The notes below the pieces were generated by a model. The model saw nothing but the letters and a program-made list of their open reading frames with translations. It searched no databases and was not told the origin of the DNA. From Beijerinckiaceae bacterium (lineage in GTDB: Bacteria > Pseudomonadota > Alphaproteobacteria > Rhizobiales > Beijerinckiaceae), in NCBI GenBank assembly GCA_947456505.1, contig CANGTC010000011.1, positions 1 through 48,702 of the forward strand: 48,702 bases of DNA. Reading direction: 5' to 3'. The translations under genes were made by a program, and so were the position numbers. Below, piece after piece: positions 6,250 to 46,802 of this stretch (positions are counted from its first letter, which is position 1; every line of letters starts with the position of its first letter).

Positions 6250-7224
6250 TCAATTCTGATCAAACTGGATATTCCGCTCGCGCACAAGGGTCACCCATTT
6301 CTGGATGTCGGCGGCCACCCGCGCGCCCATCACATCGCCTCCCTTGTCCAGAACGATCAGGCCGCTTTTTTCAAGCTTTTCGCGCACTTCGGGAACCCGC
6401 ATGGCCTCGGTGACGCCAGCCTCGAGTTTCTTCACGATGGGCGTGGGCGTGCCCGCAGGCGCAAAGGCGCCGATCCAGGTGCGAACGTCATAGCCGGGCA
6501 GGCCGGATTCATTCAGGGTTGGCACATCGGGCAAGACAGGCTGCCGCTCCAGAGTCGAGACCGCCAGAAGTTTTACTTGCGATGACTGAAGGGCGGGACC
6601 GGCCGTCGACAGATCGGCGATGAGCATTTCCACACTGCCGGACATGACCGCAGTGACTGTGGTGGACCCGCCCATGAAGGGAACGCTCTGGACTTCGGTT
6701 CCCGTGTTGGCCTTGAACAATTCCAGCGCCAGCAAGGTGGCCGTTCCCCCAGAGGCGTGATTGAGGCTCCCGGGGCTCTTCTTGGCGAGAGCGATGAGTT
6801 CGCGCACGCTGTTGGCGGGAACCTTTTCATTCACCATCAGCACAAGCGGCAGGGAGGCGATCATGGCCAGAGGTTCAAAGTCCTTCACGGGATCATAGGA
6901 CAGGGTCTTGAAGACCGCGACATTCATGGCCATGGCGCCATCATGGGCGAACAGCAGCGTATAGCCATCGGGGCGCGCCTTGGCCACGGCGTCGGCGCCG
7001 ATGCGCATGGCGGCGCCAGCGCGGTTCTCGACAATGACTGGCTGCCCCCACTTTTGTTGCAACTGGTTCGCCACAAGCCGAGCGGACAGGTCGATGGATC
7101 CGCCGGGCGCCGTGGGCACGATGATGCGGACCGCCCTCTGGGGCCAATCTTGCGCATTTGCGAAAGCAACGCCAAGGGCGGAAAACATCAAACCGAACAA
7201 ACAGAGAGCTATTTTCCCTGACAT
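6250..7224 (-). CDS. Bug/TTT-family periplasmic solute-binding protein
   Basis: This is a tripartite-tricarboxylate-type (Bug) extracytoplasmic receptor, 324 residues from ATG 7224. A GGAG site supports this start over an in-frame GTG at 7236. A signal peptide ends around AFANA-QDWP. The mature protein shows the diagnostic VRIIVPTAPGGSIDLSAR loop, VENRAGAAMRIGADAVAKA, the PDGYTLLFAH strand and a VPTLNESGLPGYD segment near the end. Bug proteins bind carboxylates or small aromatics and usually work with TctA/TctB permeases, neither of which is in the window. It sits between an alpha-hydroxy-acid oxidase and an LLM monooxygenase, so its ligand may be the substrate of one of them. Confidence 0.9.
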   Translation of the reverse strand: MSGKIALCLFGLMFSALGVAFANAQDWPQRAVRIIVPTAPGGSIDLSARLVANQLQQKWGQPVIVENRAGAAMRIGADAVAKARPDGYTLLFAHDGAMAMNVAVFKTLSYDPVKDFEPLAMIASLPLVLMVNEKVPANSVRELIALAKKSPGSLNHASGGTATLLALELFKANTGTEVQSVPFMGGSTTVTAVMSGSVEMLIADLSTAGPALQSSQVKLLAVSTLERQPVLPDVPTLNESGLPGYDVRTWIGAFAPAGTPTPIVKKLEAGVTEAMRVPEVREKLEKSGLIVLDKGGDVMGARVAADIQKWVTLVRERNIQFDQN

Positions 7225-7374
7225 CGTCGTCTCCACCCCGTTTTTTATTTGTATGCGCGCTGCTTCGCCGCCTTGAAAACGATAATCGCGCCGATCACCT
7301 GACGGTCCGGCGGCGCACGCCGCCCCGCACTTTCATGTCAGCCGGACCGATCTGAACCAGATCGCGCCATTCGC

Positions 7375-13700: not shown

Positions 13701-14696
13701 TCAGACCTTCAGTTTCAGCAGCTTGTCCGCATTGCCATGGGCGATCTTCACCCGGTCGGCGGGCGACAGCGGCAGGCTGTCGAGGAAGGCGCGCGCGACG
13801 GCGTTGGAGCTGAAGGGATAATCGACCGAGAACATGATGCGGTCGGCGCCGAAGATCTGCATCAGCATCAGGAAGGACGGCAGATTGTAGAAGCCGCTCG
13901 TCGTCACATGCACCTGATCGAGGATGGTCTGGGCGGGATGGCGCTGCAGGAACTTCGGGATCGCGCCCGAGAAGGTTTCCTCGAACCGGTCCAGCATGGC
14001 GGGCAGGCCTTCGCCCTGATGGCCGATGATGATCTGGAGCTTGGGGTGCTTGTCGAGGGCGCCTGACAGGGCGAGGCGGGTGATATGCACCGCTGTCTCA
14101 GCATGCCAGCCATAGCCAGCGCGCGCGAAGGCCGCCGAGAGCGGGCCCTTCAGGCCATCATAATAGGCCTCGCGCACCGCCTTGGGGGGAATGCCGGGAT
14201 GGACATAGATCGGCACGTCCAGCGCCTCGGCGCGGGCCAGCACCGGCTCGAACATGGGGTCGTCCAGAAACTTGCCATCGGTCGAGCCATTGACCATGCA
14301 GCCATGGAAGCCAAGCTTGGTGACGCAGCGCTCGAGTTCATCGGCGGCGGCGTCCGGCGCGGTGAGCGGCAGATGGGCGAAGCCAGCGTAGCGGTCGGGG
14401 TGGAGGGCGATCTGCGCGGCGAGCGCGTCGTTCATCTCGCGCGCGAAGGCCGGGCCTTCGCTGGGGGGCAGGAGATCGGCGCCGGGGCCAGAGGGGCCCA
14501 TGACCTGCAGGCTGATGCCGGATTCATCGAGAGACTTCAGGCGCACCTCGCCGAAATCCTTCAGTTTGGCGTCGACTTCGGGACGCGCGGAGGGCGCATC
14601 TGGCGGGGGATAGCCGCGCTTGATGACGAGAGCCGGATCAATCCGGCCCTGAAGCTCCGGCATGGAGAAATGTTCTTCAAGGGCGACAATGCGCAT
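13701..14696 (-). CDS. Amidohydrolase-2 family protein, gamma-resorcylate decarboxylase-like
   Basis: This is a 331-residue TIM-barrel metal enzyme of the ACMSD/gamma-resorcylate decarboxylase group, which decarboxylates hydroxylated aromatic acids or hydrolyses related compounds. The order of motifs matches 2,6-dihydroxybenzoate decarboxylases: EEHF at 7-10, IYVHPG with His166, IIIGHQGEG with His226, and FSVDYPF with Asp292, the expected metal and acid residues. TSGFYN (266-271) is also typical. It is divergent from a Bug receptor gene at 14863 and upstream of the DUF6081 gene in an apparent operon. It may be a decarboxylase of a hydroxybenzoate whose product is oxidised by the neighbouring HpaB-type enzyme; this is inference. 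Confidence 0.85.
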   Translation of the reverse strand: MRIVALEEHFSMPELQGRIDPALVIKRGYPPPDAPSARPEVDAKLKDFGEVRLKSLDESGISLQVMGPSGPGADLLPPSEGPAFAREMNDALAAQIALHPDRYAGFAHLPLTAPDAAADELERCVTKLGFHGCMVNGSTDGKFLDDPMFEPVLARAEALDVPIYVHPGIPPKAVREAYYDGLKGPLSAAFARAGYGWHAETAVHITRLALSGALDKHPKLQIIIGHQGEGLPAMLDRFEETFSGAIPKFLQRHPAQTILDQVHVTTSGFYNLPSFLMLMQIFGADRIMFSVDYPFSSNAVARAFLDSLPLSPADRVKIAHGNADKLLKLKV

Positions 14697-14805
14697 GTTC
14701 CACCTTCATTTTCTAATTGCATCAACTGCCTGGCCAGCCCCCGCAGGGGATCGCCAGTCAACATTACTGCATGATCAGCAGCGGCGCCATGGTGGGGACG
14801 GCGGG

Positions 14806-14834
14806 TTGACGGAGTCGCCGCAAGGGTATGCAAT
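14806..14834 (+). promoter_or_regulatory. Putative promoter of the Bug receptor gene at 14863
   Basis: TTGACG (14806-14811), a 17-nt spacer and TGCAAT (14829-14834) fit a sigma-70-type promoter. Transcription would start near 14841, about 10 nt before the GGAGG ribosome-binding site (14851-14855). Confidence 0.5.
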
Positions 14835-14862
14835 CCCACCCTTAAAATCGGGAGGACATGTG

Positions 14863-15885
14863 ATGACCCTTTGGCGCCTGGCGCTCATTCTGCTCGCTTT
14901 TTGCGGCGCGCAGCCCGCCGCAGCGCAGGGCGCCTTTGCGGGCAAGGTGGTCACGATCCTCATTCCCTCCAATCCCGGCGGCGGCATCGACGCCTATTCG
15001 CGGCTGCTGGCCCGCCACATCGGCAAACATATCCCCGGCCAGCCCAATGTGACCGTGCAGAATGTTCCCGGCGCCGGCGGCTTGCGCGCGCTCAACATGC
15101 TCGTGGGCAAGCCCCCGCATGATGGAACCGTGATCCTCAATGTGAATTCCGGGAACCTGATCCACGAACTGATGGGCGAGCCGGGGATGGACATCTCCCT
15201 CAGAAAGCTCAACTGGCTCGGCGACATCAGCCAGAGCAATCCGGTGGACCTGACCTGGCCCCACTCCAGCATCAAGACCATCGAAGACGCCAGGAAGACC
15301 ATCACCCGGGTGGGCGCGACGGGCGTGGGCTCCAGCCCCGCGCAGATCGCCTGGGCCTTCAACGCCCTGGTGGGCACCAAGTATCATGTGATTCTGGGCT
15401 ACACGGGGGCGGGCGAATATGACCTCGCCATTCAGCGCGGCGAGCTCGATGGCCGCAATGTGACCTCCTACACCAGCTATATGGCGGGCGTGCCGGAGGA
15501 GATCAGGCCCAAGCTCAACCTGCTGGCGCAACTGGGGATCCGCAAGGACCCCAATGTGCCGGCCCATGTGCCCCTGCTGATGGATCTGGTGAAGGGCGAC
15601 CCGAAGAAGGAGGCCACCGCGCGCCTGCTCTCCCTCGCCTTCGCCTCCATAAACCGTCCCTTCGCCGTGTCGCCCGCCGTGCCCGCCGAGCGGGTGGCTC
15701 TGCTCCGGCAGGCCTTCGCCGACACCATGAAGGATCCCCAATTCATCGCCGAGGCCGAGCGCATGCATGCGGACCTCTCGCCCACCACGGGCGAGCAGCT
15801 GGAAGCGCTCGTCTCCGAAGCGCTCTCCTTCCCGCCTGACATCGTGGAGATCCTGAAAGAGGCCCTGCGCGAACCAAAGCCCTGA
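14863..15885 (+). CDS. Bug/TTT-like periplasmic solute-binding protein, divergent subgroup
   Basis: The protein has 340 residues. ATG 14863 is chosen for its GGAGG at 7-nt spacing and the signal peptide MTLWRLALILLAFCGAQPAAA. The ligand loop ILIPSNPGGGIDAYSRLLA and VQNVPGAGGLRALNML are Bug-like. The region VGATGVGSSPAQIAW, then LGYTGAGEYDLAIQRGELDG differs from the classical Bug pattern (YKG-PA-TDL-GG-D) and is shared with the receptor at 42131. It is transcribed away from the amidohydrolase and precedes a complete ABC transporter by 108 bp, without sharing its type. No TctA/TctB partner is visible. The ligand is unknown, probably a carboxylate. Confidence 0.85.
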   Translation: MTLWRLALILLAFCGAQPAAAQGAFAGKVVTILIPSNPGGGIDAYSRLLARHIGKHIPGQPNVTVQNVPGAGGLRALNMLVGKPPHDGTVILNVNSGNLIHELMGEPGMDISLRKLNWLGDISQSNPVDLTWPHSSIKTIEDARKTITRVGATGVGSSPAQIAWAFNALVGTKYHVILGYTGAGEYDLAIQRGELDGRNVTSYTSYMAGVPEEIRPKLNLLAQLGIRKDPNVPAHVPLLMDLVKGDPKKEATARLLSLAFASINRPFAVSPAVPAERVALLRQAFADTMKDPQFIAEAERMHADLSPTTGEQLEALVSEALSFPPDIVEILKEALREPKP

Positions 15886-21410: not shown

Positions 21411-22541
21411 TTACTGCGCAGCGACCGCCGCAGCGGCGCCATCGCGTTGCGCGAAGTGGCGGCGTACGGCAGGCCAGACCTCCCGACCGAGGAGGGTGAG
21501 GGACTCGCGCTCCCAGTCCTCATTCTGGCCGCTCCAGTCCATGCCGGAGACCAGCAGATTGCCGAAGGGCCCGACTTCGTCGCGCAAGACGATCAGCTTG
21601 TCGCGCACGGTGGCGGGCGAGCCGAAGATGACCCGGGGCATCATGGCTGTTTCCACCGTCACGTCAGCGTCCGCCATGTCGGGCCGGGTCTTGAGAGCGA
21701 TGAGCTTGCCTGCGCGGGCGAGCACCTGACGGATGTAATCGAAGTAAAAACGCACGGAGCTTTGCGCATGGGCGAGGCGGCGCTCCGCCTCCGCGTCGCT
21801 CGGCGCCACGAGCACCACGCGCACCACGCGCCAGTTCTCGCCGGAGACCTCGCGACCGGAACTCGCCAGCCCCTTGCTATAGCCGATCCAATGGGTGGCG
21901 ACGCCAGCGGGGGTCAGCAGCGAGCTCGTCAGCGGGCCCCAGCCCCGCTCGCCCGCCAGCACCGCCGTGCTGGAATTGGGCGTGGACACCGACACATGCA
22001 CCGGCGGGCCCTCAGGCGTCGTGGGCTTGGGCATGATGCCCATCTGCAATTCCGGATGGATGTTCCTGGTGATGCCGAACTTCCAGAATTCGCCATCGAA
22101 TTCATAGGGCGGCCCCTGCTTCCAGATCGCCTGCATCATGCTGATCGATTCAAGCATCATGCGCCTGCGCGAGGCTTCATCTTCCAGTTGGAAAAGCTCC
22201 CAGTCCGATGGCAGGCTGCCGGTGCCGATGCCGAAGCGGAACCGGCCCTTCGCCATCTGGTCGAACTGCGCCACTTCCGCGCCCACCACCGCCGGGTGGC
22301 GGTTCGGCAGACTGATCACGCCGGTGCCAAAGGTGAGGTTGCGCGTCTGCGGCAACAGGCTCGCCATGAACATCAGCGGCGAGGGGATCGCCTCGCTCGT
22401 GGCGGAAAAATGCTCGCCAAGCCAGAATTCATCGAAACCCACGGAATCCAGCAAAAGCGCCTTGCGGGTGACCTCGTCCATCACCTGACCCATGGTCCGT
22501 CCGGGCGGGGACAGGGGCATGAGAAAAATTCCGAGATTCAT
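21411..22541 (-). CDS. LLM-class flavin-dependent monooxygenase
   Basis: The protein has 376 residues from ATG 22541, chosen for the GGAGG at about 7 nt; an in-frame GTG at 22553 overlaps that site. Luciferase-fold landmarks are MNLGIFLMPLSPPGR, SVGFDEFWLGEHFSA (about 33-47), TFGTGVISLPNRHPA (about 69-83) and KGRFRFGIGTGSLPSDW. This subgroup resembles the LimB-like/alkanal-type monooxygenases. It is divergent from the salicylyl-CoA hydroxylase/OYE fusion across a 158-bp shared promoter region. It would need reduced FMN from elsewhere; no reductase is nearby. Confidence 0.85.
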   Translation of the reverse strand: MNLGIFLMPLSPPGRTMGQVMDEVTRKALLLDSVGFDEFWLGEHFSATSEAIPSPLMFMASLLPQTRNLTFGTGVISLPNRHPAVVGAEVAQFDQMAKGRFRFGIGTGSLPSDWELFQLEDEASRRRMMLESISMMQAIWKQGPPYEFDGEFWKFGITRNIHPELQMGIMPKPTTPEGPPVHVSVSTPNSSTAVLAGERGWGPLTSSLLTPAGVATHWIGYSKGLASSGREVSGENWRVVRVVLVAPSDAEAERRLAHAQSSVRFYFDYIRQVLARAGKLIALKTRPDMADADVTVETAMMPRVIFGSPATVRDKLIVLRDEVGPFGNLLVSGMDWSGQNEDWERESLTLLGREVWPAVRRHFAQRDGAAAAVAAQ

Positions 22542-22593
22542 GGCGTCCTCCACGGCGCTGATTTTCGCCTACATCAGCGGAGAATGGCCCCCA

Positions 22594-22646
22594 TGGCAAG
22601 CCCCGGGGAATAATTTTGCCAGACCCCAGGCCACGCTTCCTTTTAT
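22594..22646. promoter_or_regulatory. Divergent promoter candidate with inverted TTGCCA elements
   Basis: TGGCAA (22594-22599) and TTGCCA (22616-22621) are exact reverse complements, so each strand has an outward-facing TTGCCA that can serve as a -35. The plus strand has TTTTAT (22641-22646) at a 19-nt spacing. The minus strand has a weak TGATGT at 17 nt. The repeat may also be a regulator site. Confidence 0.3.
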
Positions 22647-22699
22647 CGCGCGTCCCGATAAGATCGGCCGCAGAAAATGAAAGCGGGGGAAGCAAGCTC

Positions 22700-24931
22700 A
22701 TGAAGGTCATCTGCCTTGGCGTGGATCCAGCCGGTCTCTATCTCGCAGCCTTGCTAAAGACATCCGGCGTCGCCCAGGATGTCGAAATCGTGGAAGGGCA
22801 AGCCGAGGCCTCGCCCACGCCGCCCCATGTCATGGCGCATCCCCTCAAGCCCGCCGCTCCCTTTGCGGATGACGCGCTGGACCGCGCCATAAAATCAGCC
22901 TGCAGGTCCGTGCGCGGGGTGCGCATTCGAGCGGCGCAGGTGGCCACGTCTACGGATCATCAGGCCTACGCCTTCATCGACGCCGCCACATTGACCGGCC
23001 TGCTGCGCGAAAGGGCGCGCGAGCTGGGTTGCCGCCTCACCTACGGCCCGACGCCCCCAAGCGCCGCCTTGGCTGACGCCGATCTGGTGATCGTGGCGGA
23101 GGGCGCTGAAAGCCCCATGCGCTCTGTCGGCGGCGCCTTCAAAACCGCGCTTCAGACCTCCAAAACCCGACATTTCTCCTTCGATGTGGATCTCGCCAGC
23201 GAGCGCCTCGAATACTGGTTTCACCGCACGGCGCAGGGCGTCGGTCAGGCCAGCCTCACGCCCGCAGGCGCGGCGAGCGTTCTTCGCGTGGAGACCACTG
23301 TGCAGGCGCTGGAAGCCGCCGGCCTTGTCGACGCCGACGCAGCGACCATCACCAGCTTCTGCGCCGCAACCTTCGCCGGGGAACTGGCGGGCGCCAGTCT
23401 CCATCCGCGTGATGCTGGCTGGCGCACTTTCAGCCATCTGCGCAACGCCAGCTGGAGCGCAGGCAATCTGCTGCTGGTGGGCGCTGCGGCCTACAACGCG
23501 CATCCCTCGGTCGGCCTCGATATGCGCATGGCCATGGCCGACGCGGAGGCCTTCGCCGAAGCTCTCGCGAAGGGCGGACCCGTCCCCGAGGTGCTCAAGG
23601 CGGTGGAGGCCGCCCGTCGCCCCAAGGGCGCGGAAAGCCTGCAGCGCGCCTCAAAGGCGAGCCTCTCCTGGTTCGAGAATGTGCATCGCTACATCGACAT
23701 GCCGCCGGAGCAATTCGCCTTCTCCTGCCTCACCCGCAGCATGCGCGTCACCCATGAGCATCTGAAATCCTGGGCGCCGGACCTTGTGGGCGAGGTCGAT
23801 GCGCTCGCCGCCGGCGCCATCAGGGGCCGCAACGGCGCGCCGCCGCCGCCCATGCTCACGCCATATCAACTGGGCGACCTCACTCTGCCCAACCGAATCG
23901 TCATGTCGCCCATGTGCATGTATTCGGCTGACGGTGGAACCGTGAACGATTTCCACCTCGTCCACTACGGCAGCCGGGCCATCGGCGGCGCGGGGCTCAT
24001 CATCGCGGAAATGACGGATGTGACGCCGGAAGGTCGCATCAGCCCCGGTTGCGCGGGCATGTACAAGCCCGAACATGTGACAGCATGGAAGCGCGTGGTC
24101 GATTTCGTCAAGAAAAACAGCGAGACGAAGATCGGCCTGCAACTCGCCCACGCCGGGCGCAAGGGCGCGATCTCGGCCTCGTGGGATGGTCACGCGCAAT
24201 TGCCGCCCGACACGGCCTGGGAGACCCTGGCGCCCTCCGCCATCCCCTTCGACAAGGACCGCACCATTCCCCGCGCCATGGACCGCGCCGACATGGACCG
24301 GATGCGCGACGCCTTCGCCAAAGCCGCCGTGATGGCGGACGAAGCGGGCTTCGACATGCTCGAACTGCATCTGGCCCATGGCTATCTGCTCTCCTCCTTC
24401 ATCTCGCCACTGTCAAACAAGCGCACCGACGATTACGGGGGCTCCCTGGCGAACCGGCTGCGTTATCCGCTGGAGGTCGTGCGCGCGGTGCGCCGCGCCT
24501 TGCCGCAGCACAAGCCGATCACCGTGCGCATCTCCGCCCATGACCTGATCGACGGCGGCACGACGATCGAGGATTCCATCCTCTTCTCCCGCTGGATTCA
24601 GGACGCTGGCGCGGACATGATCACGGTCTCCACCGGCGCCGTCACCGCCGAGCGCCGCCCCATGGTCGGGCGCCTCTACCAGACCACCTGGAGCGACCAG
24701 ATCCGCAACGAGACGAAAATTCCCACCATGGCGGTGGGCGGCGTCGCCAGCTTCGCCGACGCCAATACGATCATCGCCGCCGGGCGGGCGGATCTCTGCG
24801 CCCTGGCGCGCGGCTATATGTTCGACCCCTATTTCCCCCGCCATGCAGCCCACCAGCAGGATTACAGGGATATGCGCTGGCCGAACCAGTATCGCGGCGC
24901 CAACGCCCTGATCATGCGCGATTTCGACTGA
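22700..24931 (+). CDS. Salicylyl-CoA 5-hydroxylase/Old Yellow Enzyme fusion with degenerate FAD motifs
   Basis: The protein has 743 residues from ATG 22700 (GGGGGA upstream). The architecture matches the known bifunctional salicylyl-CoA 5-hydroxylase/oxidoreductase fusions: an FAD-hydroxylase half (1-370) and an NADH:flavin oxidoreductase/OYE half (about 385-743). The FAD half is abnormal. The GxGxxG loop reads GVDPAG (7-12, Asp for the second Gly), the DG motif reads VAEGAESPMR (132-141, Glu for Asp) and the GD motif reads LLVGAAAYNAHPSVG (258-272, Ala262 for Asp). The usual FGWGVVFSD segment after the first loop is missing. Late landmarks WFENVHRYIDMPPEQFAFS (324-342) remain. The OYE half looks intact: MSPMCMYS (402-409), QLAHAGRKG (481-489), HLAHGYLLSSFISP (557-570) and ALARGYMFDP. 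Substrate assignment for the first half is therefore doubtful. Confidence 0.85.
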   Translation: MKVICLGVDPAGLYLAALLKTSGVAQDVEIVEGQAEASPTPPHVMAHPLKPAAPFADDALDRAIKSACRSVRGVRIRAAQVATSTDHQAYAFIDAATLTGLLRERARELGCRLTYGPTPPSAALADADLVIVAEGAESPMRSVGGAFKTALQTSKTRHFSFDVDLASERLEYWFHRTAQGVGQASLTPAGAASVLRVETTVQALEAAGLVDADAATITSFCAATFAGELAGASLHPRDAGWRTFSHLRNASWSAGNLLLVGAAAYNAHPSVGLDMRMAMADAEAFAEALAKGGPVPEVLKAVEAARRPKGAESLQRASKASLSWFENVHRYIDMPPEQFAFSCLTRSMRVTHEHLKSWAPDLVGEVDALAAGAIRGRNGAPPPPMLTPYQLGDLTLPNRIVMSPMCMYSADGGTVNDFHLVHYGSRAIGGAGLIIAEMTDVTPEGRISPGCAGMYKPEHVTAWKRVVDFVKKNSETKIGLQLAHAGRKGAISASWDGHAQLPPDTAWETLAPSAIPFDKDRTIPRAMDRADMDRMRDAFAKAAVMADEAGFDMLELHLAHGYLLSSFISPLSNKRTDDYGGSLANRLRYPLEVVRAVRRALPQHKPITVRISAHDLIDGGTTIEDSILFSRWIQDAGADMITVSTGAVTAERRPMVGRLYQTTWSDQIRNETKIPTMAVGGVASFADANTIIAAGRADLCALARGYMFDPYFPRHAAHQQDYRDMRWPNQYRGANALIMRDFD

Positions 24932-25029
24932 CCGCTGCGGTCTCAGGCCGCACGAAATTTAGCTGCGGTTCTCAACCAATGGACTATAAGGGCTCACCGT
25001 CGCAGACCGGCGGCGCAGAGTGAGGACCT

Positions 25030-26607
25030 ATGGACGTACGACAGGCGGATGTGGTGATCGTAGGCGGTGGGCCCGTGGGCATGGGCCTGGCCATCGAGCT
25101 TGGCCAGCGCGGGGTTCGCTGCCTGGTTGTGGAGCGCCACAAGGAGCCCCAGCCCATCCCCAAGGGCCAGAACCTGACCCAGCGCACCATGGAGCATTTC
25201 CATGCCTGGGGGGTGGACAAGGCCGTGCGCGCGGCCTCCCCCATTCCCGTGGATTTCGGCATCGGCGGGCTCACGGCCTATGGCACGCTGCTCGGCCCCT
25301 ACCATTACGACTGGTATCAGCGCGTCATCGTCCGCCCCTTCTATTTTCAGGACAACGAGCGCCTGCCCCAATACGCCACCGAGGCCGCCCTGCGCGCCCG
25401 GGCGGCGCAGCTGCCCGAAGTGACCACCCTGTTTGGCTATACCGCGCGCGAGATCACGCAGGACGCGACAGGCGCCAGTGTGACCATCGCCTCGGCCGAT
25501 GGCGAGCTGCGCCAATTACGCGCCAGTTATGTGGTGGGCTGCGACGGCGCCCGCTCGCTGGTGCGCGAACAGGCGGGGCTGACGCAGACCTACTCAGACC
25601 ATGAAATCCGCATGGCGCTGCTGGTGTTCCGCTCCGACCGGCTGAACGAGCTGCTGGCCCATTTCAAGGGCAAGTCCTTCTTCAACGTGCTGCATCCCGA
25701 ACTCGACGGCTACTGGCGCTTTTTCGGGCGAGTGGACACGGGCAAGACCTGGTTCTTCCATGCGCCCGTGCCGGAAGGGACCACGCGGGAGAATTTCGAT
25801 TTCCACGGCTATCTCGAGGAGGTCGTGGGCGCGCCCTTCGATTGTGAATTCCAGCACATCGGGTTCTGGGACCTGCGCGTAGCCGTGGCCGACAATTACA
25901 GTGCGGGCCGCCTGTTCATCGCGGGCGACGCCGCCCATAGCCATCCCCCCTATGGCGGCTATGGCATCAACACGGGTCTCGAAGACGCCCGCAACCTCGG
26001 CTGGAAGCTCGCCGCCACCCTGCAGGGCTGGGCGGCGCCCGGCCTGCTGGACACCTATAGCGCGGAGCGCCAGCCGGTGTTCGTCTCGACCGCGCGCGAC
26101 TTCATCGTGAACTATATCGAAGATGATCGCGCCTTCCTGCGCGCCCATAATCCTGACCGCGACCGGGAGGATTTCGAGAAGGCCTGGGCTGTGCGCGCCT
26201 CGGGCGTGAGTGGGGAGATCCAGAGTTTCGAGCCCAACTACGAGGGCTCGCCGCTGGTGGTGGGCTCCGCTGGCGGGACGCCGAGCGCCGTGGGCTCCCA
26301 TAGCTTCAAGGCCCGCGCGGGGCACCATCTGGCGCCGCAGATCCTCTCCAGCGGACGCAATGTGTTCGAGGAGCTGGGGGCGGGCTTCACCCTCCTCGCC
26401 TTTGGCGCGGCGGAGCCGGACATCGCCGCCTTCGAGGCCGCCGCTCACGCGCGCCAGATCCCCCTCAAGGTGCTGCGCGACACATTCGCGGAGGGACGCA
26501 GGGCCTATGAAGCCCGGCTCATCCTCGTTCGCCCCGACGCCTTTGTCGCCTTCGCTGGCGATGCGGCGGCAGCCGACGCCGTTCTTGGAACGGCGGTCGG
26601 CGCCTGA
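25030..26607 (+). CDS. FAD-dependent aromatic hydroxylase (MhpA/PheA/TfdB-like)
   Basis: This is a 525-residue class A flavoprotein monooxygenase that would hydroxylate a phenolic or aromatic acid using NAD(P)H and O2. All FAD signatures are present: GGGPVG (12-17), VVGCDGARSLVR (168-179) and FIAGDAAHSHPPYGGYG (296-312), followed by NTGLEDARNLGWKLA. The C-terminal part carries the thioredoxin-like domain found in this subfamily, ending with ILVRPDAFVAF. GAGGA lies just ahead of ATG 25030. It follows the fusion gene by 98 bp on the same strand. Its intact motifs contrast with the degenerate ones next door. The substrate is unknown. Confidence 0.9.
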   Translation: MDVRQADVVIVGGGPVGMGLAIELGQRGVRCLVVERHKEPQPIPKGQNLTQRTMEHFHAWGVDKAVRAASPIPVDFGIGGLTAYGTLLGPYHYDWYQRVIVRPFYFQDNERLPQYATEAALRARAAQLPEVTTLFGYTAREITQDATGASVTIASADGELRQLRASYVVGCDGARSLVREQAGLTQTYSDHEIRMALLVFRSDRLNELLAHFKGKSFFNVLHPELDGYWRFFGRVDTGKTWFFHAPVPEGTTRENFDFHGYLEEVVGAPFDCEFQHIGFWDLRVAVADNYSAGRLFIAGDAAHSHPPYGGYGINTGLEDARNLGWKLAATLQGWAAPGLLDTYSAERQPVFVSTARDFIVNYIEDDRAFLRAHNPDRDREDFEKAWAVRASGVSGEIQSFEPNYEGSPLVVGSAGGTPSAVGSHSFKARAGHHLAPQILSSGRNVFEELGAGFTLLAFGAAEPDIAAFEAAAHARQIPLKVLRDTFAEGRRAYEARLILVRPDAFVAFAGDAAAADAVLGTAVGA

Positions 26608-26643
26608 CGGGACCTTGATAGGCGCTGGAAGACCTGCGCCCTC

Positions 26644-27996
26644 CTATTCGGCGGCCTTCGCCTTGGCCTTGTAGCGACTTTCGGGGCGGGGGAGCCCCAG
26701 ATGATCGCGCAGGGTCTTGCCCGTATATTCCTTGCGGAACAGGCCGCGCTTCTGCAGCTCCGGCACCACCATTTCGCAGAAATCCACATGCTGGCCAGGC
26801 ATATAGGGCGGCAGCACGCAGAAGCCGTCACAGGCCCGGTTGGTGAACCATTCCTCCATGTAGTCGGCGACCTTCTTCGGGCTGCCGTGGATGGAGTTCT
26901 TGCCGCGCGCGCCAGCGCAGCGCGCGCCCAACTCGCGAATGGTCAGATTCTCGCGGCGCGCCATGCCGACGATGGAGTCGTAATGGCCCTTGCTAATGTT
27001 CGTCCCCGGCAGGGGATCCGGCAGGGGGCCATCGAGCGGATAGGGCGACAGATCCATGCCGCCCAGCATGGTCGCGAGGATTTCCCGGCCCACGATGGGA
27101 TGGATGAGGTTTTGCAGACGGTCGAAATCCTCCGCCGCCTTGTCGTCGCTCTCGGCGACCACGACGCTGAGACCCGGCAGGATCTTCAGATGGTCGGGGT
27201 TGCGGTTATAGTTGCGCTGCATCCGCCCCTTGACGTCGTCATAATAGGCCTTGGCCTCGGGAATGTTGAGATGGGGCGAGAAGATCGCCTCCGCCAGTTC
27301 CGCCGCCAGCTCGCGCCCCTCGTCGGAGGCGCCGGCCTGCACCTGCACCGGATAGCCCTGAATGGGACGCGGCACATTGAGCGGGCCGCGCACCTTGAAC
27401 TGCTCGCCCTCATGCCGCAGATAATGCATCTTCTCGGGGTCGAAATAGAGGCCGCCTTCCACGTCGCGCACGAAGGCGTCATCGTCCCAGCTATCCCAGA
27501 GCCCATAGACGACCTTGGCGAATTCCCGCGCGCGACCATAGCGTTCCGCGTGGTTGCCGACCTTGTCGCGGCCGAAGTTCAGAGCCTCGGCGGGCTGGGC
27601 TGACGTGACGAGATTCCAGCCCGCGCGGCCATGGCTGATGTGGTCCAGCGAGGCGAATTTGCGGGCGAGGTTGTAGGGCTCCTGATAGGTGGTCGAGGCG
27701 GTGGCCGTCAGACCGATGTGCTTGGTGACCATGGCGAGCGCCGAGAGCAGGGTCAGCGGCTCGAAATGGGCGACAAACTGGACGGAGCGCGAAATCGCCT
27801 CGATATGCGCCTCGCGGGTGGCGTTGCTGTCGGCGAGGAAGATCATGTCGAACTTCGCCCGCTCCGCAGCCTGGGCCATTTCGACATAATGCTCGATGCT
27901 GACATTGGCGCTGGGGTCAGCGCGCGGATGGCGCCAGGAGGCGACATGATGTCCTGTGGGGTTGAAATAAGCCGCAAGCGTCATCTGCCTGGTCAT
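26644..27996 (-). CDS. NtaA/SnaA/DszA-family FMNH2-dependent monooxygenase
   Basis: This is a 450-residue luciferase-fold oxygenase of the nitrilotriacetate monooxygenase A/dibenzothiophene-sulfone type. Diagnostic segments are MTLAAYFNPTGHHVASWRHP, AERAKFDMIFLADS (about 43-56), TYQEPYNLARKFASLDHIS (about 103-121), GRAGWNLVTS and VQAGASDEGRELAA. The C-terminal GSPKKVADYMEEWF and DGFCVLPPYMPG are also family-typical. GGAGG lies 7 nt before ATG 27996. It is the last gene of a long minus-strand run that includes an amidohydrolase, a Bug receptor and a molybdenum hydroxylase. It needs a partner flavin reductase that is not in the window. It converges on the flavin hydroxylase gene with a 36-bp gap. 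Confidence 0.88.
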   Translation of the reverse strand: MTRQMTLAAYFNPTGHHVASWRHPRADPSANVSIEHYVEMAQAAERAKFDMIFLADSNATREAHIEAISRSVQFVAHFEPLTLLSALAMVTKHIGLTATASTTYQEPYNLARKFASLDHISHGRAGWNLVTSAQPAEALNFGRDKVGNHAERYGRAREFAKVVYGLWDSWDDDAFVRDVEGGLYFDPEKMHYLRHEGEQFKVRGPLNVPRPIQGYPVQVQAGASDEGRELAAELAEAIFSPHLNIPEAKAYYDDVKGRMQRNYNRNPDHLKILPGLSVVVAESDDKAAEDFDRLQNLIHPIVGREILATMLGGMDLSPYPLDGPLPDPLPGTNISKGHYDSIVGMARRENLTIRELGARCAGARGKNSIHGSPKKVADYMEEWFTNRACDGFCVLPPYMPGQHVDFCEMVVPELQKRGLFRKEYTGKTLRDHLGLPRPESRYKAKAKAAE

Positions 27997-29152: not shown

Positions 29153-30124
29153 TCATTCAGGCTCGACGCCCACGGTTTTCACATGGGCGCCCCAGCGCGC
29201 ATATTCCTGTTTCACGAAATCGCCGAACTGTGGCTGCGTCATTTTCAGGACGCCGATGTTGCGGGTTTCCAGCCGCTTGCGCGTGGCGGGATCCTCAAGG
29301 AACCGATTCACCATGGCGTGGATGCCGTCAACGACGGGCTTTGGCGTTGCGGACGACACGACGACGCCAAGCCATGTGCTGACGAGATAATCAGGCAGAC
29401 CAACTTCCGGCGCGGCCGGCACATCCGGCAGATAGGACTGGCGATCCTTGCTCGCCGCCAGAAGCACCCGGATCTGGCCGGCCTCCATGCCCGCGCGCAG
29501 ATCGCCAACGGAACTGGCGATCATGGCGAGACGACCCGCCATCAGATCGGCCACCGCTGGCTGGGCGCCCCGGTAGGGCACATGCACCATCTTCAGCCCG
29601 GCCTGATAGGCGAAGATCGCGGCCGAGAGATGGGGCAGAGAACCCATGCCTGCGGAACCATAATCGAAACCATCGGGCTTGCCCTTCGCCAGCGCGATGA
29701 ACTCCTGCGCGGTCCTGGCGGGCAAGGAGGCGTTGATGGCGATGAATTGCGGCGCATCCACCAGAGAGGCCACATGGGTGAGATCCTTCATCACATCCAG
29801 CGGCATCTGCTTTTGCACGAAGGGGCTGATGACGAGACTGCCGGAAATGGCGACGCCCAGCGTATAACCATCGGGCTCGGCGCGGGCGACGGCGCTCATG
29901 GCCGTGGCGCCCGCAGCGCCCGTCCGATTTTCGACAATGGCCTGCTGGCCCATCTCGCGGGTGATGAAGTCGGCCATGTAGCGCGCCACTTCATCCACAA
30001 TGCCGCCGGGGGCGAAGCCGACCATGAGACGCACGGGCTTGGCGGGATAGTCCTGCGCCAGAGCGGCGTCGCAACCAAGCGACAGGACCGCCGCCACAGC
30101 AGCTATCCATTTGCGAAGCCTCAT
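29153..30124 (-). CDS. Bug/TTT-family periplasmic solute-binding protein
   Basis: This is a 323-residue receptor with signal peptide MRLRKWIAAVAAVLSLGCDA through ALA (about 23 residues). Classical Bug motifs are present: VRLMVGFAPGGIVDEVAR, VENRTGAAGATAMSAVARA, PDGYTLGVAISG, the ligand-domain HVPYRGAQPAVADLMAGR (about 185-202) and LPDVPAAPEVGLPDY. AAGGAA precedes ATG 30124. The next gene, an ACMSD-like amidohydrolase, starts 15 bp after the stop, so the two are co-transcribed. The upstream 219 bp carry a long imperfect inverted repeat that may regulate it. No TctA/TctB membrane partner is in the window. Confidence 0.9.
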   Translation of the reverse strand: MRLRKWIAAVAAVLSLGCDAALAQDYPAKPVRLMVGFAPGGIVDEVARYMADFITREMGQQAIVENRTGAAGATAMSAVARAEPDGYTLGVAISGSLVISPFVQKQMPLDVMKDLTHVASLVDAPQFIAINASLPARTAQEFIALAKGKPDGFDYGSAGMGSLPHLSAAIFAYQAGLKMVHVPYRGAQPAVADLMAGRLAMIASSVGDLRAGMEAGQIRVLLAASKDRQSYLPDVPAAPEVGLPDYLVSTWLGVVVSSATPKPVVDGIHAMVNRFLEDPATRKRLETRNIGVLKMTQPQFGDFVKQEYARWGAHVKTVGVEPE

Positions 30125-38844: not shown

Positions 38845-39867
38845 ATGAGATTGATCCTCCTCCTGTGTCTCGCGGCCAGCTCTTTTTCCGCAACAGCTGC
38901 GGAATTGACGCGTGTGAAAATGGGAGTTGTGGGAGCCTCGGCGGACGTTGTTTTCTGGGCGGCGTTCGAGCGGGGCTATTTCCGGGAAGAAGGCCTTGAT
39001 CTGGAAATCGTCAAATTCGATTCCGCCGCGCGCACCATAGCGCCCCTTGGTAGTGGCGATCTGCAGATTTCGGCGGGGGGAATATCAGCGGGCTTCTTCA
39101 ACGCGGTCGCACGTGGCATCGACATCAAGATCGTCGCTGATAAGACGCAGACCATCCCGGGGCTTGGAACGCAGTCTTTGCTGGTGCGCAAGGACCATCT
39201 GGATTCCGGTCGCTTCAGGTCCATCGCGGATCTCAGGGGCATGAAGGTGGCGAGCCCCGCGCCCGGATCAGCCTCCACAACAATCCTGACGAAGATGCTG
39301 GCGAAAGGCGGACTGACGACGAAAGACATCGAGATGGTGTCGCTCGCGGTGCCGCAGATGACCACGGCCTTCGCCAACAAGGCGCTGGACGCAGCCGTTC
39401 CGCTCGAGCCCGGCGTGTCATTGGCTACGCAGACGGGCTTCGCCAAGCGCGTCATGGAAGATTACGACGTCTATCCCGAACACCAGATCGCCGTGCTCTT
39501 TTATTCCGGCAAGTTCATTCGCGATAATCGCAAGGCGGGCGTGGGCTTTCTGCGCGCCTATCTGCGCAGCGTTCGCGAATTCAACGAGGCGCTGGAGAAT
39601 GGCCGTTTTTCGGGCCCCAAAGCCGAGCCATTCATCGAGATCCTGACGCGCCGCGGCCCTTCGCACGACCCCGCCTTTTATCGCTCCTTCACCCTGGGTT
39701 TTTCACACCCTGATGGAAAGCTGCATCTGCCCAGCCTGAGCGAAGACCTCGCCATTTTCCGCGACGAAGGCCTGATCGAAGGCGACGTCACAGTGGGACA
39801 GGCCGTCGATTCCACCCTGCTCGACGAAGCCTTGCAACGCGTCGGGACTTACCGTCCCGCGAAATAA
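38845..39867 (+). CDS. NMT1/SsuA-like periplasmic substrate-binding protein
   Basis: This is a 340-residue receptor with signal peptide MRLILLLCLAASSFSATA (cleavage about residue 19). Family features are VFWAAFERGYFREEGLDLEI (about 36-55), GSGDLQISAGGISAGFFNAV, SIADLRGMKVASPAPGSAS (about 126-144) and a helical C-terminal lobe. The ribosome-binding site is weak. It follows the alpha/beta hydrolase by 57 bp and ends 7 bp before the convergent acyl-CoA synthetase. No ABC permease or ATPase of the sulfonate/taurine type is near, so it is another orphan receptor. The ligand is unknown. Confidence 0.87.
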   Translation: MRLILLLCLAASSFSATAAELTRVKMGVVGASADVVFWAAFERGYFREEGLDLEIVKFDSAARTIAPLGSGDLQISAGGISAGFFNAVARGIDIKIVADKTQTIPGLGTQSLLVRKDHLDSGRFRSIADLRGMKVASPAPGSASTTILTKMLAKGGLTTKDIEMVSLAVPQMTTAFANKALDAAVPLEPGVSLATQTGFAKRVMEDYDVYPEHQIAVLFYSGKFIRDNRKAGVGFLRAYLRSVREFNEALENGRFSGPKAEPFIEILTRRGPSHDPAFYRSFTLGFSHPDGKLHLPSLSEDLAIFRDEGLIEGDVTVGQAVDSTLLDEALQRVGTYRPAK

Positions 39868-39874
39868 GCGCGCG

Positions 39875-41968
39875 TTATTTCGACACGATCAAACCATCGA
39901 GCGCCACGGCCCGATCTGGCAGCGCCAGCAGCGGATTGATTTCGAGCGAGGCGATCTCGCGCCCATGGCGGAATGCCAGCACGGACACCCGCGCAATCGC
40001 CTGCGCCAAAGCCTGAAGGTCCGCAGGCCTTGAGCCCCGCGCGCCATTCAGCAGCGAGAACCCGCGCAGTTCATGCAGCATCTCCAAAGCAGCATCCTGC
40101 CCAAAGGGCGCGATGCGGATGGCGGTGTCACGCAGGGCCTCCACGAAGATCCCGCCAAAGCCCACCATGACCAGTGGCCCGAAAACCGCGTCATTGACCA
40201 CGCCGACAATCATTTCGACGCCGCCCTGCACCATCGGCGACACAAGCACGCCATCGAGACGCGCCTGCGGAGCGTTACGCGCGATATTGCCAGTGATGGT
40301 CGCAAACCCCGCCTCGACCTCAGCAGAAGTAGCAAGATTCAGCAGAACGCCGCCCACCTCGGTCTTGTGCGGAATATCTTCGGACGCCGCCTTCAGCGCG
40401 ACAGGGCCACCAAGACGCCGAGCCGCCTCCGCAGCTTCTTGCGCAGTCGTGACGCGAACCTCTTCGGCCACATCCACACCCGACGCGCGCAACAGACGGC
40501 GCGCCTTGATCTCATCATCCGGCCCACGCAACAAAGCCGCGTCGATGGTGGCGACATCAGGCAATGCCTCGGCGCAGCGGTGAACAGATGCGGCCTGCGC
40601 CTGCAGCCGCGCGATGGTGCGCACCGCGCGCGTCGGCTCTTCGCAGGTGAAGATCCCGAGGCGCTGCAGTTCGTCTTTCTCCTCGAAAGACAGGCTCGCG
40701 ACCATACCAATGAAATGAACGGGGTGGGCCGCCCGGTGGGCCGCAAGATGGGCGCGTAACTGCGTGGCAGGCTTCGCGATCAGGCCGAAGTGGCCGATGG
40801 CGAGCAGGGTCGCGCCAAATCCCTCGTCAAGCAGAAGCCGCGCGGCGTCGTTCATCTGATCAAGATTGCCGATGTCGACGGGATTGAGCGCGGTTGTAAG
40901 GTCGCGGCCAGCCTTCAGCGCCTGTTGCGAGGCTGGCGACAGCTCCGGCAAGGTCCAGCCATTGCGCGCGGCCTCATCGGCGATGAGAATGCCAAGACCC
41001 CCTGAAACGGTGGCCACGCCGAGCGTCTTTGCGCCGGGGCTGCGGCCCGTATCCAGCGCCGCGACGAGATCGACAAGCTCTTCGATGCTCTGCGCGGTGA
41101 AAACGCCATGGTGACGGAAAATCGCTTCAAAGGCGTCGTTACCACCCACAAGCGAGGCGGTGTGCGAGGCGACGGCCTTCTCGCCTGCGGCGGTCGTCCC
41201 CGCCTTCAGCATCACCACCGGCTTGCCCTTGGCGCGCGCCAGTTCCAGCGCATCGCGAAAGGCCTGCGCCCGCTCGACGCCTTCGAGATAAACGGCGATG
41301 ACGCGGGTCTGCTCGTCCTCAGCCAGCCAGGCGATGCAATCGGAGAGATCCACGTCAGCCTGATTGCCGGTGGCGATCCAATGGGCGAGCCCAACGCCGC
41401 GATCACGCAAGAGCGCCATGAGATGCGAGCCCACAAAGCCGCTCTGGCTGGCGATGCTCACATGTCCAAGTCGCGGCCAGCCGCGTCCCTGATGATCCGC
41501 GATGCTGGTGAAAGTCGCGCTCATGCGATTGCGGATGCTGAGGCCGCCCATGCTGTTAGGGCCCACCATCCGCAACCCCGCCTCGCGCACCCGCGCCGCC
41601 ATGCGCTCCTGCGCCGCGCGACCTTGGGGGGAATGTTCGGCGAAGCCGGAACTCAGCACAATCAGCAGCGAAACGCGCTTGGCGATGCAGGCCTCAATGG
41701 CCGCCTCCACATGTTTGGCGGGAAGAACGATCAGCGCGCAATCGATCCCTTCGGGCAGATCATCGATGGAGGTCACGGACTCGCGCCCTTGAATGAGGCC
41801 GCCGCCCGGATTCACAAGATAGAGTTCGCCCGCATATCCAAGATCGATGTTCTGTGCGACGGCTCGGCCGCCAAGCTTGCGCGGATCAGCCGAGGCGCCA
41901 ATGATCGCAAGGCTGCGTGCGTTGAAAAAATGCCCAAGCCCTGAAGACACCTTGTTTCCCCCACTCAT
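39875..41968 (-). CDS. ADP-forming acetate/acyl-CoA ligase family protein (fused alpha-beta)
   Basis: This is a 697-residue acyl-CoA synthetase (NDP-forming), activating an acid to its CoA thioester. ATG 41968 gives the usual FFNARSLAIIGASADPRKLGG opening. Domains are CoA-binding (about 10-140), succinyl-CoA-ligase-like (about 150-460) with SQSG (174-177), GNQADVD (201-207) and the phosphohistidine region VASHTASLVGG (His269), then an ATP-grasp domain (about 475-697) with GPVALKAAS, DIPHKTEVGGV and ASLEINPLLA. Fused alpha-beta proteins of this kind activate acetate, phenylacetate or other organic acids. It is divergent from a Bug receptor pair at 42131. Its acid substrate may be the one imported there; this is inference. 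Confidence 0.88.
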   Translation of the reverse strand: MSGGNKVSSGLGHFFNARSLAIIGASADPRKLGGRAVAQNIDLGYAGELYLVNPGGGLIQGRESVTSIDDLPEGIDCALIVLPAKHVEAAIEACIAKRVSLLIVLSSGFAEHSPQGRAAQERMAARVREAGLRMVGPNSMGGLSIRNRMSATFTSIADHQGRGWPRLGHVSIASQSGFVGSHLMALLRDRGVGLAHWIATGNQADVDLSDCIAWLAEDEQTRVIAVYLEGVERAQAFRDALELARAKGKPVVMLKAGTTAAGEKAVASHTASLVGGNDAFEAIFRHHGVFTAQSIEELVDLVAALDTGRSPGAKTLGVATVSGGLGILIADEAARNGWTLPELSPASQQALKAGRDLTTALNPVDIGNLDQMNDAARLLLDEGFGATLLAIGHFGLIAKPATQLRAHLAAHRAAHPVHFIGMVASLSFEEKDELQRLGIFTCEEPTRAVRTIARLQAQAASVHRCAEALPDVATIDAALLRGPDDEIKARRLLRASGVDVAEEVRVTTAQEAAEAARRLGGPVALKAASEDIPHKTEVGGVLLNLATSAEVEAGFATITGNIARNAPQARLDGVLVSPMVQGGVEMIVGVVNDAVFGPLVMVGFGGIFVEALRDTAIRIAPFGQDAALEMLHELRGFSLLNGARGSRPADLQALAQAIARVSVLAFRHGREIASLEINPLLALPDRAVALDGLIVSK

Positions 41969-42046
41969 GCCTGCGATTCCCCTCGCGCTGCGCAACGAAT
42001 AACGGCGCCGCATCAGGAGTCAAATTCCCCCAATGGGCGGAACGTC

Positions 42047-42075
42047 TTGCAGCGCGTCAGGGCTTTCGTTAGCAT
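42047..42075 (+). promoter_or_regulatory. Weak putative promoter of the Bug receptor gene at 42131
   Basis: TTGCAG (42047-42052) and TAGCAT (42070-42075) are spaced by 17 nt in the 162-bp divergent gap, about 55 bp before ATG 42131. The match to consensus is modest. Confidence 0.3.
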
Positions 42076-42130
42076 CGCGCGCAACTCTGCCGCGCAGGCT
42101 TGCGGCAGGCCAATCCAAGGGGGAAACCGC

Positions 42131-43144
42131 ATGGCGGTTCATATGACACGGCGGACTCTGGCACTGGGCCTCGCCGCCGCCGCGAGCCTGCCGGGCGCTG
42201 CGGGCGCGCAAAGCAGCAAATCGCTCACGATCTATGTTGGTTTCGCAGCGGGCGGCGCTGTGGACCTCTATGCGCGCCTCGTTGGCAAACATATGGCGCA
42301 GGAACTTGGCCTCGCCGGCGCCATCGTCCAGAACATCCCGGGGGCGGGCAGCATCGAAGCGGCCAACCGGCTTTATAACTCGGCGCCGAAAGACGGTTTG
42401 ACCATTGGCGCCCTTGGCCGGGGCATCGTCACCGAGCCCCTGTTCGAAAACGCCAACGCTCGTTACAACGCCGCAAAATTCAACTGGATTGGAAGCCCCT
42501 CGCGGGAAAACGCCACGGTTCTGTCCTTTGGAAATTCGAAGTTTCGGACGCTGGACGACTTGCGTAAATTCGAGATGAAAGTCGGCGCCACCGGGCCAGG
42601 CGCGGAAGGCTATTCCTTTTCGCGCGTGCTCAACGAAGTCCTCGGGACCAAGCTACGGCCCATTCTCGGCTACACCGGCTCCGCCGATATCTTGCAAGCG
42701 CTTGAGCGGGGCGAGATCGACGGCTCAGCCGGCCTCTCATGGGCGGCGGCCATTCGCGGCACCCATCCCCATTGGGTGCGGGACAAGCTCGTCAACCCGA
42801 TCCTGCAACTGGGCCAGGCGCCCTTCGCCGAACTTGAAGGCGCGCCGCGCGTGGTGGACCTGATCGAGAAGCCTGCCGACAAACAGCTCTATTCCATTTT
42901 CGCCTCGCGGCTGGACTACGCCTTTCCGTTCATCGCCCCGCCGGGAGTCGCGGAGGCGGAGGTCACGCGCTTGCGGGCGAGCTTCGACAAGGCGGTGAAG
43001 AATCCGGACTTCCTGGGCGAGGCGGCCAAGATCGCCCTTGATGTCAATCCCCTTTCGGGCGAGCAGATGAGCGTGCTCATCGACAATATCTTCAAGAGCG
43101 ATCCGGGCACGCTCCAGCGCGCAGCCGCCATCATGAAGCCGTGA
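42131..43144 (+). CDS. Bug/TTT-like periplasmic solute-binding protein, divergent subgroup
   Basis: The protein has 337 residues from ATG 42131 (GGGGGA at 7 nt); a second ATG at 42143 is possible. The leader MAVHMTRRTLALGLAAAASL has a twin-arginine-like TRRTLALG (6-13) and ends about GAAGA. The loop LTIYVGFAAGGAVDLYAR and VQNIPGAGSIEAANRLY are Bug-like. As in the receptor at 14863, the middle reads VGATGPGAEG, then ILGYTGSADILQALERGEID, a shared variant of the ligand domain. The next gene, a 4,5-dihydroxyphthalate decarboxylase-like protein, starts 36 bp downstream, indicating co-transcription. No membrane partner is near. Confidence 0.86.
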   Translation: MAVHMTRRTLALGLAAAASLPGAAGAQSSKSLTIYVGFAAGGAVDLYARLVGKHMAQELGLAGAIVQNIPGAGSIEAANRLYNSAPKDGLTIGALGRGIVTEPLFENANARYNAAKFNWIGSPSRENATVLSFGNSKFRTLDDLRKFEMKVGATGPGAEGYSFSRVLNEVLGTKLRPILGYTGSADILQALERGEIDGSAGLSWAAAIRGTHPHWVRDKLVNPILQLGQAPFAELEGAPRVVDLIEKPADKQLYSIFASRLDYAFPFIAPPGVAEAEVTRLRASFDKAVKNPDFLGEAAKIALDVNPLSGEQMSVLIDNIFKSDPGTLQRAAAIMKP

Positions 43145-46754: not shown

Positions 46755-46802
46755 GTTCCACCCCGATGTTTTATTGTTGAAAGTCACGATTTCAGATGTT
46801 GG

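Follow-up and report, generated by a model that had tools for sequence, protein, structure and literature searches.

A hydroxylase/OYE fusion from a Beijerinckiaceae bacterium with a putatively flavin-free N-terminal half

The DNA analyzed here, referred to as the window, is a stretch of 48,702 nucleotides from a Beijerinckiaceae bacterium (contig CANGTC010000011.1). It contains a gene for a fusion protein in which a half resembling the class-A FAD hydroxylases is followed by an OYE half (Table 1). The gene begins with an ATG at 22700 and ends with a stop codon at 24929-24931, and its frame is open throughout; the earliest in-frame start of any kind is a TTG at 22616. A gene for a luciferase-like monooxygenase (LLM) lies upstream in the divergent orientation. 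Downstream, positions 25030-27996 hold a class-A aromatic hydroxylase and then an NtaA/DmoA-type FMN monooxygenase, both of which are 94-97% conserved in L209, a collinear locus of the genome G036. The fusion protein belongs to a clade of seven, which is distinguished below from the ordinary fusions of the same family.

Table 1. Features of the fusion gene and its immediate surroundings, in window positions
Feature	Positions	Strand	Basis or remark
LLM gene, divergent, 380 aa, like 3,6-diketocamphane 1,6-monooxygenase	21411..22553	-	
Interval present in the window, absent from the collinear G036 locus (L209)	22627..24950	.	
Fusion gene, pseudo-hydroxylase N-half and OYE C-half (putative)	22700..24931	+	743 aa
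Class-A FAD-hydroxylase-like half, degenerate, residues 1-372	22700..23815	+	Pfam, VioD matches, lost conserved columns
GVDPAG in place of GxGxxG, residues 7-12; second glycine to Asp	22718..22735	+	
Segment in place of the ordinary RN..DTFG(W/F)GVVFSD (flavin-ring segment)	22796..22852	+	alignment
EG in place of DG (AEG, residues 133-135), a weak sign	23099..23104	+	alignment
GAAAY in place of the GD motif, residues 261-265; Asp lost	23480..23494	+	alignment
GLDMR in place of the loop GSGT(K/R)	23513..23527	+	alignment
OYE half, class III, XenA/YqjM-like	23858..24919	+	Pfam Oxidored_FMN, 238 bits; conserved columns kept
OYE Cys406 (SPMCMYS)	23915..23917	+	alignment
AHGYL motif with His560 and Tyr562	24374..24388	+	invariant in 7/7
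Ordinary class-A FAD aromatic hydroxylase, intact Rossmann motif, neighbouring gene	25030..26607	+	present in L209

In the N-half, the only Pfam match is a partial one to FAD_binding_3 (26.4 bits, profile positions 149-348), which covers its second part. The PDB structures nearest to this half by sequence are those of VioD, 3c4a (1.5e-13, 53.8 bits) and 8gqr (2.2e-13, 53.3 bits). The OYE half has its nearest structures among OYE-family reductases, for example 8pun and 5ocs; XenA and YqjM rank lower. No structure was found for the ordinary or the clade fusion family, and an AlphaFold model of the fusion, built on only three sequences, had a mean pLDDT of 35.7. The top NCBIfam model is that of the bifunctional salicylyl-CoA 5-hydroxylase/oxidoreductase, NF006101, at 729.8 bits against a curated cut-off of 1078. 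All five other clade members scored (all except L013) also miss this cut-off, with 529-755 bits, while the five ordinary fusions scored all pass it, with 1118-1350 bits. The label of salicylyl-CoA hydroxylase in the original prediction is therefore not upheld; the domain order of the known fusion family, which had also been predicted, is borne out by alignment and trees. Because NF006101 is the best NCBIfam match of the clade proteins, a pipeline that ignores the cut-off of the model would give them this name, and there is a risk of mis-annotation.

Several of the residues expected in an FAD site are absent from the N-half. The original prediction held that all three FAD signatures had been lost, and two of these losses, of the GxGxxG glycine and the GD aspartate, are confirmed at residues 7-12 and 261-265. 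Neither is peculiar to the window protein. The position of the second Rossmann glycine is occupied by D, N or C in 7/7 clade members and by G in 48/48 ordinary fusions, and that of the GD aspartate by A or S in 7/7 clade members and by D in 48/48 ordinary fusions. The third change, of DG to EG, is real but is not diagnostic of a pseudo-hydroxylase, since DG is still present in the two nearest relatives of the window protein (L008 and L009), the otherwise ordinary fusion L158 has EG in its N-half (L175 is also listed), and VioD has Asn. Similarly, the FGWGVVFSD motif was correctly described as gone, but it is not simply absent: a stretch of similar length that is particular to the clade and semi-conserved, P(P/A)xxxx(H/N)(P/A), stands in its place.

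These changes are part of a wider loss. Of 100 N-half columns with at least 95% conservation in the 48 ordinary fusions (13 truncated or stand-alone rows were left out), the whole clade retains 18, and 35 survive in no member. Among those lost are the flavin signatures and the motifs WxG, HxY and GFxGxxR of the putative active site (the Phe of GFxGxxR survives in one of the seven), and among those retained are the histidine of HxSxG and the linker's Thr-Arg. The flavin and substrate contacts of these columns are presumed from class-A enzymes. The window protein itself retains the first Rossmann glycine, the HxSxG histidine (His268) and, as Glu32, the acidic residue that ends beta-2, which is Asp in L008 and L009 and absent in L013 and L034. 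A sequencing or frameshift artefact, or chance, can be ruled out, as six further genomes share the losses of the glycine, the segment and the GD aspartate. We infer that the N-half no longer binds FAD or hydroxylates, although weak nucleotide binding may remain given the kept glycine, acid and histidine.

The OYE half, on the other hand, has changed far less at its conserved columns. As originally predicted, it keeps its Cys, His and AHGYL motifs: Cys406, Gln481, His484, His557, His560 and Tyr562 are present and, together with Tyr408 and Arg610, invariant in the clade, with roles that we take to be those of the corresponding residues in YqjM and XenA. The features of class III OYEs, namely the Cys26-type residue, the His/His pair, the active-site Tyr and the FMN-phosphate loop, are all present. 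The position of Cys406 is Cys in 7/7 clade members, 28/55 ordinary fusions and 18/18 stand-alone OYEs. In this half, 55 ordinary fusions share 85 conserved columns, of which 69 are retained across the whole clade and two by no member at all. Column retention differs between the halves with a Fisher p of 2e-18, where columns are treated as independent and the reference rows number 48 for the N-half and 55 for the OYE half. The OYE half thus still looks catalytic by its residues. Nineteen residues are typical of the ordinary fusions and rare in stand-alone OYEs; five of these are kept and four (Asp642, Gln647, Tyr656 and His706) are gone in all seven, and the loss of these four suggests a changed substrate pocket. 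The possibility that the OYE half is nearer to the stand-alone OYEs was rejected, with 17 positions siding with the fusions and one with the stand-alone enzymes. All of these OYE-half column and residue counts use the sequence set of the 80-row tree described below.

Clade members with intact frames are present in 7 of the 51 genomes of the genus, that of the window included. They comprise subclade A (the window protein, L008 and L009) and subclade B (L010, L011, L013 and L034). Every member is without the GD aspartate, the second glycine of the Rossmann motif and the segment TFG(W/F)GVVFSD, and no frame contains an internal stop. The prediction of a maintained frame, which in the window runs for 743 aa from the ATG at 22700 to the stop at 24931, agrees with this. 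Two members were found in a named collection, as Rhizobiales/Hyphomicrobiales MAGs. Searches of 397 order, 398 phylum, 385 class and 397 family genomes, which are overlapping samples with two to four candidates scored per genome, yielded no further members. A plasmid search with the N-half gave 141 matching records, all below 60% identity, and the four inspected had ordinary motifs; scans of viral contigs gave no clade relative and a single stand-alone hydroxylase (L154). Profile A1 scores the clade at 553-642 bits and everything else among the matches listed at 293 bits or less. The glycine and the aspartate are both present in 98 of 99 distinct aligned relatives outside the clade, which include fusions and stand-alone hydroxylases; the exception, L028, is truncated short of the Rossmann part.

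Phylogenetic analysis of the OYE half places the clade among the fusions. In a tree of 80 rows, the clade is recovered at 100/100 inside the fusion group, and the split from 18 stand-alone OYEs has support of 100/99, so that the predicted subclass sharing these changes stands as a clade of seven members. An earlier tree of 90 rows also groups the clade with the fusions (96 SH-aLRT). The 90-row tree was built after removal of the OYE L153 and of 13 rows that were truncated or nearly identical to others; for the 80-row tree, 30 ordinary rows (near-duplicates or truncated) and eight stand-alone OYEs (long branches, near-duplicates and L153) were dropped and 14 ordinary rows were added. Judging from these trees, the clade shares its ancestry with the NF006101 fusion family. 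The 90-row tree suggested that the clade is sister to all ordinary fusions, but with the wider sampling of the 80-row tree just 23% of bootstrap trees recover the ordinary fusions as one clade against it, and the sister position is therefore tentative. In the N-half tree, which carries long-branch warnings and was used for branch length only, about 2.7 changes per site separate the clade from the rest.

Substitution rates were estimated for seven clade pairs, some of which are near or beyond dS saturation. By NG86, dN/dS is 0.12-0.35 for the N-half and 0.03-0.24 for the OYE half; YN00 gave no values for most clade pairs. The ratio of N-half dN to OYE-half dN is 2.5-4.6 in the clade pairs and 0.44-1.74 in six ordinary pairs (six of ten submitted gave output). 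Because its dN is raised to this extent while its dN/dS stays in this range, the N-half is judged, from these rates, to evolve under relaxed but continuing purifying selection. Furthermore, the seven N-halves are identical at 46 positions, and the residues at 11 of these are rare (at most 10%) in 58 ordinary fusions; the OYE half likewise has 10 newly invariant residues. Two N-half cysteines, Cys111 and Cys343 (codons 23030-23032 and 23726-23728), are invariant in 7/7 and nearly absent from the 58 ordinary fusions.

The gene is accessory. The G036 locus is collinear with the window, with 90-91% DNA identity on both sides, and the fusion gene alone is absent; when L209:5726-5920 is compared with window 22553-25030, 42 unrelated bases between the LLM gene and the FAD hydroxylase gene replace it. 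An ordinary fusion is carried elsewhere in G036 (L024). Loss in G036 is a simpler reading than gain by the others, since loci L095 and L096 share the arrangement of LLM and fusion. The rate and distribution data bear on the alternative that the N-half is a passive relic, drifting in an untrimmed fused frame, while the gene itself is being lost from species. The raised dN of the N-half, the presence of the clade in only 7 of 51 genus genomes and the clean gap in G036 would all be expected of a relic. However, the dN/dS of the N-half is still 0.12-0.35, all seven N-halves are near full length and stop-free across two deep subclades, and 46 of their positions are invariant, including the 11 that are rare in the ordinary fusions. 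We therefore regard a relic as unlikely.

The neighbourhood of the gene suggests a possible partner in subclade A. In all three of its loci, the divergent LLM gene starts about 140-150 bp away, and the LLM proteins are 81-82% identical to each other, which is higher than the identity of the fusions themselves. No LLM was found near any of 27 ordinary loci or four subclade B loci. The pairing is not obligatory, because LLM orthologues (at least 67% identity) are present in 10 of the 51 genus genomes and in seven of the 10 no fusion adjoins them. In the genome G032, a 731-aa RTX-repeat protein (L210:7851-10046) is encoded divergently from the LLM, in the place of the fusion. A haloarchaeal ordinary fusion on a plasmid of Haladaptatus salinisoli (L219) adjoins an LLM gene, near a gene for benzoate-CoA ligase. 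The best match of the LLM is 3,6-diketocamphane 1,6-monooxygenase, a type II Baeyer-Villiger enzyme whose FMN is reduced by a separate protein (PMC4631483). An F420-dependent LLM was set aside, since CofD was not found in the window's own genome, which is 88% complete. Two other candidates were rejected. An apparent extra N-terminal domain of about 450 aa in L008 and L009 proved to be an open stretch antisense to the divergent LLM gene. The Zn-alcohol dehydrogenase adjoining subclade B, presumably a housekeeping S-(hydroxymethyl)glutathione dehydrogenase, needs no link to the fusion to explain its high identity and was not retained as a dedicated partner.

These observations raise the question of whether the N-half has acquired a new role in ligand sensing, allostery or partner docking, with the LLM supplying oxygenation in the window's subclade. 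Such a role would fit the 11 newly invariant N-half residues, Cys111 and Cys343 among them, and the conserved LLM about 145 bp away (81-82% identity) in 3/3 subclade A members. Nevertheless, we consider it improbable, as seven of the 10 genus genomes with an LLM orthologue have no fusion beside it, the four of seven members in subclade B have no LLM nearby, and the invariance may be due to chance in seven related rows, given that the OYE half also has 10 such residues. A further proposal, which is speculative and which we hold to be slightly less probable again, is that the class-A fold has become a flavin-free binding or docking domain serving the ene-reductase, while the LLM, as a type II Baeyer-Villiger-like enzyme, oxygenates in the window's subclade. 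If true, a hydroxylase/reductase on one polypeptide would have become a two-gene pair of oxygenase and reductase, with the pseudoenzyme half as the link. Least probable of all is that the N-half remains a monooxygenase, with an altered substrate, and uses other residues to bind FAD or a related nucleotide. Its fold is recognizable by sequence (VioD, 1.5e-13), and the window protein keeps His268, the acid of beta-2 and the first Rossmann glycine. However, the second Rossmann glycine and the GD aspartate, present in 48/48 ordinary fusions, are lost in 7/7, and the flavin-ring segment, the GSGT loop and the GFxGxxR, WxG and HxY columns are lost too.

With moderate confidence, we favor the reading that the protein is an FMN-dependent OYE ene-reductase with a flavin-free pseudo-hydroxylase N-half that is kept as a scaffold. 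The ancestor of the N-half would be the FAD monooxygenase half found in the 2-aminobenzoyl-CoA monooxygenase/reductase fusion family, and FAD binding and hydroxylation would since have been lost. The C-half may reduce an activated C=C bond, though in a substrate that differs from the hydroxylated anthraniloyl-CoA intermediate. The N-half would then serve the OYE half, which would have grown dependent on it, as a scaffold for folding, for the dimer or for positioning the substrate, and a scaffold appears to be the most economical reading of its sequence. As several related species share the change, the domain looks like a pseudoenzyme that has been retained and not like an error. At the level of sequence, the clade-wide losses, the purifying selection and the kept OYE residues support the degenerate first half and the pseudo-hydroxylase/OYE subclass of the original prediction. 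No paper on a flavin-free hydroxylase/OYE fusion was found in the open-licence PMC literature. We take Rab GDI to be a precedent for an FAD-related fold working as a binding domain without FAD; it is eukaryotic and is not fused to an OYE. A study of how flavin monooxygenases evolved (PMC4981433) names functional cofactor binding as a main constraint on these enzymes. The clade looks like the opposite case, with the cofactor site gone and the length and the fusion retained. For the change of a catalytic domain into a scaffold, the seven clade fusions, the dozens of ordinary fusions and the single locus from which the gene is cleanly absent would form a small natural series.

Known systems resemble the protein in part. 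It is like the NF006101 family (2-aminobenzoyl-CoA monooxygenase/reductase) in domain order, linker and OYE half and is of similar length, but the clade has lost the FAD signatures and the columns of the putative hydroxylase active site, and no CoA-ligase operon was found around its genes. The enzyme of this type from Azoarcus evansii is a homodimeric flavoenzyme, according to a review (PMC4539516). A named ordinary fusion with ordinary flavin motifs, WP_011928002 from plasmid pAL1 of Arthrobacter Rue61a, is 49% identical to the window protein in the OYE half and 30% in the N-half. The class III OYEs (XenA, YqjM, PDB 8pun and 5ocs) are matched by the OYE half over approximately its whole length, including the catalytic Cys, the His pair and the Tyr; unlike them, the window protein has a 372-residue N-terminal pseudo-hydroxylase, and the trees group it with the fusions. 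VioD, an FAD hydroxylase of violacein biosynthesis (3c4a, 8gqr), keeps GxGxxG and GD and has Asn at DG, whereas the window N-half is without the second of these glycines and the GD Asp, and the VioD model scores the ordinary fusions (5/5) at 189-222 bits and the window at 63.

The operon context also differs. Genes for aryl-CoA ligase, enoyl-CoA hydratase, acyl-CoA dehydrogenase and SDR were sought within 10 kb at 50% identity or more, with query proteins supplied by two of the ordinary loci. One or more of them stand at 23 of 27 ordinary loci, and the aryl-CoA ligase itself is near 19 of the 27. At the same identity, genes of the 2-aminobenzoyl-CoA operon were found at none of the seven clade loci, several of which have short flanks (contigs of 5.9 and 4.4 kb for L096 and L097, and less than 1 kb on one side for L099 and L100). 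L095 and L096 have two further genes in common beside the LLM, one for a transporter binding protein (86%) and the other for an ADP-forming acyl-CoA synthetase (81% across the 271 residues present in L096), so CoA thioesters may still be substrates. In the window, an NMT1-like binding protein gene stands beside one for an ADP-forming acyl-CoA synthetase at 38845-42013, with 41% and 46% identity to the pair in L095 and L096. TctC-like binding-protein genes were identified by Pfam at 29153-30124 and 42047-43144, and binding-protein genes similar to them by BLAST lie at 6250-7236, 14662-15885 and 45780-46787.
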